A stretch of 64,000 nucleotides of DNA, taken from Deferribacter desulfuricans SSM1 (GTDB lineage Bacteria; Chrysiogenota; Deferribacteres; Deferribacterales; Deferribacteraceae). The position numbers and the translations under genes were made by a program. The stretch covers positions 124,001-188,000 of the forward strand of contig NC_013939.1 of assembly GCF_000010985.1 (NCBI RefSeq), read 5' to 3'. Numbering within the stretch: position 1 is the first letter of the stretch; every line of letters begins with the position of its first letter. Positions 27,259 through 58,221 of the stretch are shown one piece after another. The notes under the pieces were generated by a model, which was not told the DNA's origin, ran no database searches, and was given only the letters and a program-made list of their open reading frames with translations.

Positions 27259-27948
27259 TTAATTTTTATATAGAGCAGCGATAAGCATCAAACTATCTTT
27301 GATAAAAAACTTATCTTCATCAAAACTGCCAAAAAACTGGACAAAACCAGCGCCTGCTTTCGTTGCAGCTAATTTTATATCTTCTAAAAAGATGGGTGTT
27401 ATAGTCTGCTTTATAGTTTTTGTGGTATTATTTTTTTTGTCGGTAACTACCATTTCAAAGGTTATTTTTGATTCATCATCATAATGGTAGAGCCTTTTTG
27501 CATATATATATTCGTTATCAATTACTGGTAATTCTTTTATGTTATAACCATATATCCTATCGTAATTTATTATTTGTATCAAAAGATATGATTTGTGATC
27601 TAATAACTTCATACTATTTTTAATAATTTTAAAAAATTGAAGTTTATCGTTTACGTGCACCAATGTATTGCCAATAGAATATATTAATCCAAATTTACTC
27701 TCATCTTTTAATGGTAATTGATTCATATCACCATAAATAAAATGATTGTTTAAATTAAACCCTTTTTCAAACTCAAGGCCGAAAGCTTTAAAGTTATCGT
27801 TTCTAAATCTGGTTACATATTTTCCTGTAGCACAACCTATATCCAATATGGGGAGATCTTTTTTTGCATAACTTTTTAAAAAGTTGTAAGTTGTTTCATC
27901 AAAAGGGAATAAAAAATCGTATATATCGTTTATATTACTATAAAACAT
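27259..27948 (-). CDS. class I SAM-dependent methyltransferase
   Basis: A 229-residue methyltransferase of unknown substrate. The SAM motif LDIGCATGKYVTRF lies at about residues 35-48, an acidic post-I strand (GLEFEKG) and a YGDMNQLPL motif follow. It is the last gene of a minus-strand trio with the double-Hfq protein and a CheY-like regulator, eight bases after the latter. The substrate could be a small molecule or a protein; context does not decide. Confidence 0.8.
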   Translation of the reverse strand: MFYSNINDIYDFLFPFDETTYNFLKSYAKKDLPILDIGCATGKYVTRFRNDNFKAFGLEFEKGFNLNNHFIYGDMNQLPLKDESKFGLIYSIGNTLVHVNDKLQFFKIIKNSMKLLDHKSYLLIQIINYDRIYGYNIKELPVIDNEYIYAKRLYHYDDESKITFEMVVTDKKNNTTKTIKQTITPIFLEDIKLAATKAGAGFVQFFGSFDEDKFFIKDSLMLIAALYKN

Positions 27949-27956
27949 TTTTACTC

Positions 27957-28325
27957 TTACTTGGCCAAAACATCTGTAATAGCGTCTTTTAAATCCTTAG
28001 CTCTTACAGGTTTATTTAAGTATGTAATTACACCAAGCTGTTTACTTTTTTGGTAAGATTTATATGTCCCAAAGGCTGTAATGATAACTACCCTAACATC
28101 TTTGTTAAACTCTCTAAGTTTTTCAATAAAGGTTAAGCCATCCATTTGTGGCATTCTAAGGTCTGTAACTATTACATCAAAATCAGATTGTTTGGCCTTT
28201 TCTAAACCTTCTAATCCCGTTTCTGCAGTTTCTACTTCATATCCATCAAGTTTTAATACTTCTGCATAACCCAGTCTTGTATGTTCTTCATCGTCAACTA
28301 CTAATATCTTGTAGTTTTTTTCCAT
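27957..28325 (-). CDS. single-domain response regulator (CheY-like)
   Basis: A 122-residue receiver domain without an output domain. Acidic pocket VVDDEEH, phosphate-accepting Asp in VIVTDLRMPQMDG (about residue 55), Thr in IITAFG and the Lys in LNKPV are all present. The DLRMPQMDG form is typical of NtrC-like receivers. No kinase is adjacent. It lies three bases after the double-Hfq gene and presumably shares its transcript. Confidence 0.88.
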   Translation of the reverse strand: MEKNYKILVVDDEEHTRLGYAEVLKLDGYEVETAETGLEGLEKAKQSDFDVIVTDLRMPQMDGLTFIEKLREFNKDVRVVIITAFGTYKSYQKSKQLGVITYLNKPVRAKDLKDAITDVLAK

Positions 28326-28328
28326 TAC

Positions 28329-28829
28329 TTACCTCTCATCATCATATTTAATGATTTCTTTGTCTTGATATAATGGGTAAACTGTTGATATTGCACTTTT
28401 GTAAATAAGTTGTTGTCTGTCTTCATAGGATGTAAGCAAAACATAGTCATCAAAACCTACAAGCAACCCTCTAACTTTTACTCCGTTGGTTAAATATGCT
28501 ATAATTGGGGATTTGGATTTTCTAACCTCATTTAAAAATATATCCTGCATTGGAGGTCTTGTATGTTTTGGGTGTCTCCCTCTATGAGTTTGATAATAGG
28601 TTTTACTAATATAGTCTACATCGATAATAGTTTTTGCAGAAGCAATTGTTGCAATATCCCTTTTGTAAATATGAATTTTAACTTCTGCATCGTCAATGAT
28701 AACTGAATAGGGATCAAAGTCGTAAATTTTTCCCCTAAATCTCTCTTTATTCCTCATTATAAAAAGTAATGGTGCATCTTTTATCTTTGCATTGTGTAAA
28801 TAAACAAACTCTATTTGGGCATATAACAT
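28329..28829 (-). CDS. hfq: tandem two-domain Hfq/Sm-like RNA-binding protein
   Basis: A 166-residue protein with two Sm folds. Domain 2 (about residues 94-153) is a clear Hfq: MQDIFLN (with the RNA-binding Gln), YLTNGVKVRG, FDDYVLL and the Sm2 motif YKSAISTV. Domain 1 (about 10-66) has RNKERFRG, FDPYSVII and YKRDIATI but lacks the QDxFLN helix. A basic linker (HRGRHPKH) joins them. Bacterial Hfq is normally one domain per chain in a hexamer; three such chains could make a ring. A GAGG site lies seven bases before the ATG. Not a frameshift fusion: one continuous frame. Confidence 0.82.
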   Translation of the reverse strand: MLYAQIEFVYLHNAKIKDAPLLFIMRNKERFRGKIYDFDPYSVIIDDAEVKIHIYKRDIATIASAKTIIDVDYISKTYYQTHRGRHPKHTRPPMQDIFLNEVRKSKSPIIAYLTNGVKVRGLLVGFDDYVLLTSYEDRQQLIYKSAISTVYPLYQDKEIIKYDDER

Positions 28830-28869: not shown

Positions 28870-28898
28870 ATTATAAACAATATTGTTATAAAAGTCAA
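28870..28898 (-). promoter_or_regulatory. promoter for double-Hfq operon with internal palindrome
   Basis: On the minus strand TTGACT (28893-28898), exactly 17 bases, then TATAAT (28870-28875). The spacer contains the perfect 12-base palindrome AACAATATTGTT (28876-28887), a possible operator between the two promoter boxes. The predicted leader is about 33 bases. Confidence 0.7.
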
Positions 28899-57864: not shown

Positions 57865-57937
57865 AGCGGGTGACGGGACTCGAACCCGCGACCTCAACCT
57901 TGGCAAGGTCACGCTCTACCAGCTGAGCTACACCCGC
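57865..57937 (-). tRNA. tRNA-Gly(GCC)
   Basis: A full cloverleaf on the minus strand: acceptor GCGGGTG pairs with CACCCGC, anticodon loop TTGCCAA, and the T-arm GGGTTCGAGTCCC. CCA is not encoded. It is the last gene of a four-tRNA operon transcribed leftwards. Confidence 0.95.
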
Positions 57938-57942
57938 ATTTA

Positions 57943-58024
57943 TGCGAGTGGAGGGACTCGAACCCCCACGCCTTAGGGCACTAGATCCTAAGTCTAGCGC
58001 GTCTACCAGTTCCGCCACACTCGC
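57943..58024 (-). tRNA. tRNA-Leu(TAG)
   Basis: Cloverleaf with the long variable arm of leucine tRNAs; acceptor GCGAGTG/CACTCGC, anticodon stem CTAGA/TCTAG with loop CTTAGGA, so anticodon TAG. Discriminator A. CCA is not encoded. Confidence 0.95.
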
Positions 58025-58038
58025 AAAAAATTTATAAG

Positions 58039-58112
58039 GGTGAGCGACGGGACTTGAACCCGCGACCACTGGGGCCACAACCCAGGGCTCTACCAACTGA
58101 GCTACGCCCACC
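58039..58112 (-). tRNA. tRNA-His(GTG)
   Basis: Acceptor GTGGGCG pairs with CGCTCAC and a G stands at the -1 position opposite discriminator C, the identity mark of histidine tRNA. Anticodon stem CTGGG/CCCAG, loop TTGTGGC, anticodon GTG. CCA is not encoded. Confidence 0.94.
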
Positions 58113-58129
58113 ACTATAAATTGAAAAAA

Positions 58130-58203
<74 letters not shown>

Positions 58204-58221
58204 AACCACTACGGAAATGTA

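Follow-up and report, generated by a model that had tools for sequence, protein, structure and literature searches.

The window, a stretch of 64,000 nucleotides of the Deferribacter desulfuricans SSM1 genome, contains on its reverse strand a 166-aa coding sequence (28329..28829) whose product carries two Hfq/Sm domains and is termed tandem Hfq (tHfq). A promoter-like sequence, TTGACT-17-TATAAT, was found upstream of it by consensus match only (28870..28898, reverse strand). A stand-alone CheY-like receiver of 122 aa is encoded 3 bases downstream of tHfq (27957..28325, reverse strand), followed by a class I methyltransferase-like ORF (27259..27948, reverse strand); elsewhere in the window lies a four-tRNA cluster (Gly, Leu, His and Arg; 57865-58204, reverse strand). 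The whole tHfq protein generated a score of 113 bits against the Pfam Hfq profile PF17209 (curated cut-off, 27 bits), in two matching stretches, and 90.4 bits against TIGR02383 (cut-off, 61.7 bits). When the halves were searched separately, as the sequence-only reading had proposed, residues 1-80 alone generated 34.5 bits (E = 1.6e-8) and domain 2 in the C-terminal half 83.7 bits against PF17209, each above the cut-off; the claims that one chain holds two Hfq/Sm domains and that residues 10-66 score as an Sm fold were thus borne out. None of the 25 orthologues has a disrupted reading frame, and dN/dS was 0.006-0.022 in pairs with measurable dS, several dS values being near saturation. By sequence comparison, tHfq is under purifying selection.

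A profile of domain 1 (residues 10-68; 28626..28802, reverse strand) from the 25 orthologues matched the ordinary Hfqs of the phylum with an HHalign probability of 96.7% (E = 3e-10), the maximum in 100 column shuffles being 5.1%, and the two halves of tHfq matched each other in BLASTP (E = 2e-6, 24% identity). Domain 1 is, on these sequence grounds, a divergent yet significant Hfq domain. Its residues were numbered after E. coli Hfq in our alignment of the 25 orthologues. In all of them Gln8 is replaced by Glu, Asp9 by Phe and Ala58 by Asp, while Phe39, Asp40 and Lys56 are retained; in 23 of the 25, Tyr25 is replaced by Ile, Gly29 by Lys, Ile30 by Glu and Lys31 by Arg, so that the distal motif now reads NKERFRG. 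The Sm2 pattern is xK[RNKQ], and His57 is found in none of the 25. The sequence-only reading had described this domain as altered, which the fixed changes at positions 8 and 9 confirm, and as having lost the Gln/helix motif; the helix, however, is present in the predicted model (residues 2-16), and it is the identity of the Gln and Asp that is lost. Because these residues are fixed but different, they point to a defined second surface rather than to decay.

Domain 2 (residues 94-153; 28371..28550, reverse strand) carries the proximal motif QDIFLNEVRK and an invariant YK. Gln8, Asp9, Asn13, Arg16, Lys17, Phe39, Asp40, Tyr55 and Lys56 do not vary among the 25 orthologues, so that the proximal-face set Gln8/Asp9/Lys56, which reads Glu/Phe/Lys in domain 1, is complete in every domain 2. 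The distal Asn28-Gly29 is retained in 23 of 25, two genomes of family f8 (G049 and G050) having lost the distal motif. The His of the YKHA motif had been read as replaced by Ser here, and position 57 is indeed Ser, Thr or Asn (YK[SNT]) and His in none of the 25; YKHA with His57 is usual in Hfq, but family membership by score is possible without it. The two domains are joined by a basic linker (residues 69-92; 28554..28625, reverse strand; GRHPKHTRPP here) with an invariant ISKxYY motif and a predicted helix at residues 71-81. The C-terminal tail, EIIKYDDER (residues 158-166; 28332..28358, reverse strand), has low predicted order and an EIIKY motif invariant in 25/25, and is a possible docking peptide.

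The tHfq monomer was modelled by AlphaFold2 from 11 sequences with moderate confidence (mean pLDDT 64.6, pTM 0.60), the placement of the two domains relative to each other not being given by the model. The best-modelled part is domain 1, where 10-residue blocks between residues 11 and 60 have a pLDDT of about 73-84. In the model, both halves appear to adopt a helix followed by five strands, the Sm fold, with the linker forming a putative extra helix. Foldseek matched the model to solved Hfqs at 21-28% identity, mostly with an rmsd of 0.5-3 Å over 52-64 residues (0.5-1.4 Å over 53-62 residues for the closest matches). These matches were read as domain 1, because ordinary Hfqs match domain 2 at higher identity.

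The receiver generated 103.7 bits against Response_reg over residues 7-116 of 122 and has no output domain. Its phospho-Asp, Thr and Lys positions are intact, and its first helix is unusually conserved (VDDEEHTRxGYxEhL). Comparison of the coordinates of all 25 pairs placed a receiver orthologue directly downstream of tHfq in every tHfq genome. Orthologues scoring at least 133 bits were found in exactly these 25 genomes, the best other receiver scoring 86.5 bits; tHfq and the receiver orthologue thus occur together in 25 of 51 genomes of the phylum and are both missing from the other 26. In 19 neighbourhoods the two genes share a strand and are separated by -29 to +6 bases, the negative values depending on the chosen start; predicted receiver starts overlap the tHfq stop in the two f8 genomes and in G013. 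This pairing is the strongest new result, and it indicates functional linkage, not contact. The surroundings of the pair vary among several unrelated contexts: fatty-acid genes in Deferribacter, gyrA-gyrB-recF-dnaN in family f5, hflX and a moeA-like gene in family f3, and other genes in f2 and f4. An operon of tHfq with both the CheY-like protein and the methyltransferase had been proposed from the sequence; the first partner was found throughout, whereas the methyltransferase was rejected as part of the module, being present only near the copies in two Deferribacter genomes. A few kb upstream of tHfq, family f3 (L115, L067/L068) has a gene for an hflX-type GTPase; in Proteobacteria, hfq usually has hflX next to it. 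Deferribacter and f2 aside, most genomes have, convergent to the receiver gene and in a separate operon, a gene whose 530-590 aa product carries a Fer2 ferredoxin domain at its N terminus (cluster c2, e.g. L080:10238-11908).

A separate ordinary hfq, which the sequence-only reading had named, jointly with a lack of RNA binding, as counting against it, is present in the same genome, and tHfq is not the sole Hfq of the cell. All 25 tHfq genomes of the phylum belong to one order, Deferribacterales, and all also carry ordinary Hfq. The order has 26 Hfq-positive genomes, the only one without tHfq being G008, an assembly of about 170 contigs that is missing the receiver too. No Hfq was detectable in 20 further genomes (G029-G048) from two families of the order, and none of these 20 carries tHfq. 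A joint loss of Hfq, tHfq and receiver is possible there; as the Hfq-less genomes represent two families only, few independent events may underlie the co-occurrence. Apart from a chance match in Nocardia, close relatives of tHfq outside the phylum were not found among 84,980 species genomes. A phage or plasmid origin was rejected, as viral contigs and phage records contained no tandem relative and plasmids yielded only the Sphingomonas tandem.

Tandem Hfqs are known. The Hfq of Zymomonas was described in 2010 as having two Sm-like domains, a feature confined to Sphingomonadales, and a three-chain ring was raised as a question for it (PMC2877685). The sequence-only reading had named fused tandem Hfqs as rare and noted in Novosphingobium; they are known in Sphingomonadales in general (Zymomonas ZMO0347; PRK14091/NF010691). 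Although these proteins have two Hfq domains per chain like tHfq, tHfq scored only 72.9 bits against NF010691/PRK14091, far below the cut-off of 270. In the one copy read, the plasmid-borne tandem of Sphingomonas parapaucimobilis, each domain comes close to canonical Hfq (83.7 and 74.9 bits against an Hfq profile) and keeps YKHA, and hflX lies downstream; tHfq, in contrast, lacks His57, is divergent in one half, has a CheY partner and occurs alongside an ordinary Hfq encoded elsewhere in the genome. With ordinary Hfq (PF17209/TIGR02383), tHfq shares the fold, the domain 2 proximal residues and the rim arginine, and it scores above both cut-offs, but differs in its two unequal domains, the missing His57, the invariant linker and C-terminal motif, and the receiver. 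Burkholderia Hfq2 (175-216 aa) likewise accompanies an ordinary Hfq as the product of a second Hfq-like gene but, as described, consists of a single Hfq domain plus a disordered extension. Two Hfq-like proteins were reported in four Deferribacteraceae species in 2020 (PMC7074383), and the passage of that paper on the pair makes no mention of tandem domains or a receiver. The receiver resembles other single-domain response regulators in its intact residues and lack of an output domain, and differs from them in its obligate pairing with an Hfq-family gene. Such a pair was not found in the open-access literature searched, though it may have been noticed earlier elsewhere.

In a single-domain tree (64 columns, long branches), the domain 1 sequences of tHfq formed one clade and the domain 2 sequences were placed between it and the ordinary clade (99/98), which held ordinary Hfqs together with those of E. 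coli, Bacillus, Listeria and Caulobacter and both Sphingomonas tandem domains. These positions tentatively suggest that the tHfq fusion is independent of, and older than, the fusion in Sphingomonadales. A common origin with the Sphingomonas tandem was unsupported by this tree, and so was a recent duplication of the cell's own Hfq, both tHfq domains lying outside the ordinary clade, a weak argument given the long branches.

We favor, with a probability of roughly 45%, the reading that tHfq is a specialised second Hfq of Deferribacterales, acting as a three-chain ring with alternating sites that is tuned by the receiver. It starts from features legible in the genomes (the two domains, their residue pattern, the ordinary Hfq alongside, the receiver pairing and purifying selection); beyond these, we infer ring formation, RNA binding, CheY contact and the direction of control. 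Since a conserved basic linker joins the two Hfq/Sm domains, three chains, as the sequence-only reading had also proposed, would most probably form a pseudo-hexameric Hfq-like ring of six domains in which two kinds of site alternate. Domain 2 carries a nearly full proximal set (Gln8, Asp9, Phe/Tyr42, Tyr55 and Lys56) with rim Arg/Lys and a small polar residue in place of His57, and domain 1, with its Glu/Phe and its distal Ile/Lys/Arg, would serve mainly to complete the ring or would present a changed surface. The range of RNAs bound by this ring would be narrower than that of ordinary Hfq. A histidine kinase would phosphorylate the receiver, which would then bind tHfq, perhaps through the invariant EIIKY tail, and alter how tHfq binds or releases RNA. 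RNA affinity, partner choice or the formation of mixed rings with ordinary Hfq could each be what is controlled, and they look alike at the sequence level. A stricter version, in which tHfq is an RNA chaperone under phosphorylation control, with a dedicated CheY-like receiver directly switching RNA binding by an asymmetric Hfq ring of three chains, seems to us somewhat doubtful. The usual view is that Hfq activity depends on the supply of RNA and on how much Hfq there is. A conserved Hfq variant tied one-to-one to a phospho-receiver would be a candidate case of an RNA chaperone controlled directly by a signal, and two-component signalling would, if this is true, gain a direct route to post-transcriptional control. 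The fused unequal halves would also provide a natural ring with alternate sites altered, of use in asking which Hfq sites each RNA needs.

Alternatively, tHfq may modulate ordinary Hfq, through mixed rings or titration of RNAs or partners, with the receiver switching this modulation. We consider this rather unlikely: it agrees with the ordinary Hfq in all 25 tHfq genomes, with the lack of tHfq in all 20 Hfq-less ones and with the closeness of domain 2 to ordinary Hfq (HHalign, 99.7%), but no more than one or two losses may lie behind the correlation, domain 1 has diverged too far for a free swap with an ordinary subunit (24% identity even to its own domain 2), and G008 has Hfq without tHfq, albeit in a fragmented assembly. 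RNA binding may also have been altered or lost, a point against the preferred reading, as suggested by the absence of His57 from every domain 2 and of the distal motif from G049 and G050. In a second alternative, tHfq would be a protein-interaction hub no longer working on RNA, an effector of the CheY-like receiver; the loss of Gln8/Asp9 from every domain 1 and the new invariant linker and tail motifs fit such a role, and cyanobacterial Hfq acts through the PilB ATPase. Nevertheless, the invariance of Gln8, Asp9, Arg16, Tyr55 and Lys56 in all 25 domain 2s, the divergent f8 pair included, is hard to explain without RNA or nucleotide binding at the proximal face; this conservation argues for continued binding, and we consider the hub unlikely. 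That the CheY-like gene is an operon passenger, and that tHfq, free of phospho-control, simply serves certain RNAs as an additional Hfq, is improbable: although contact with CheY is a supposition and receivers are numerous in these genomes, the pairing is strict in 25/25 while all other neighbours change, with overlaps or very short gaps between the genes. The same strict pairing argues for phospho-control, as in the preferred reading of a receiver-tuned second Hfq.

In two reduced genomes of a sister family in the same class, a 151-aa protein is encoded beside htpG (L111:5898-6353 and L112:5857-6312). It was rejected as a diverged tHfq: a divergent Hfq domain is present at its C terminus (35.9 bits), while a second Sm domain, possibly present in degenerate form in the N-terminal half, is unproven.
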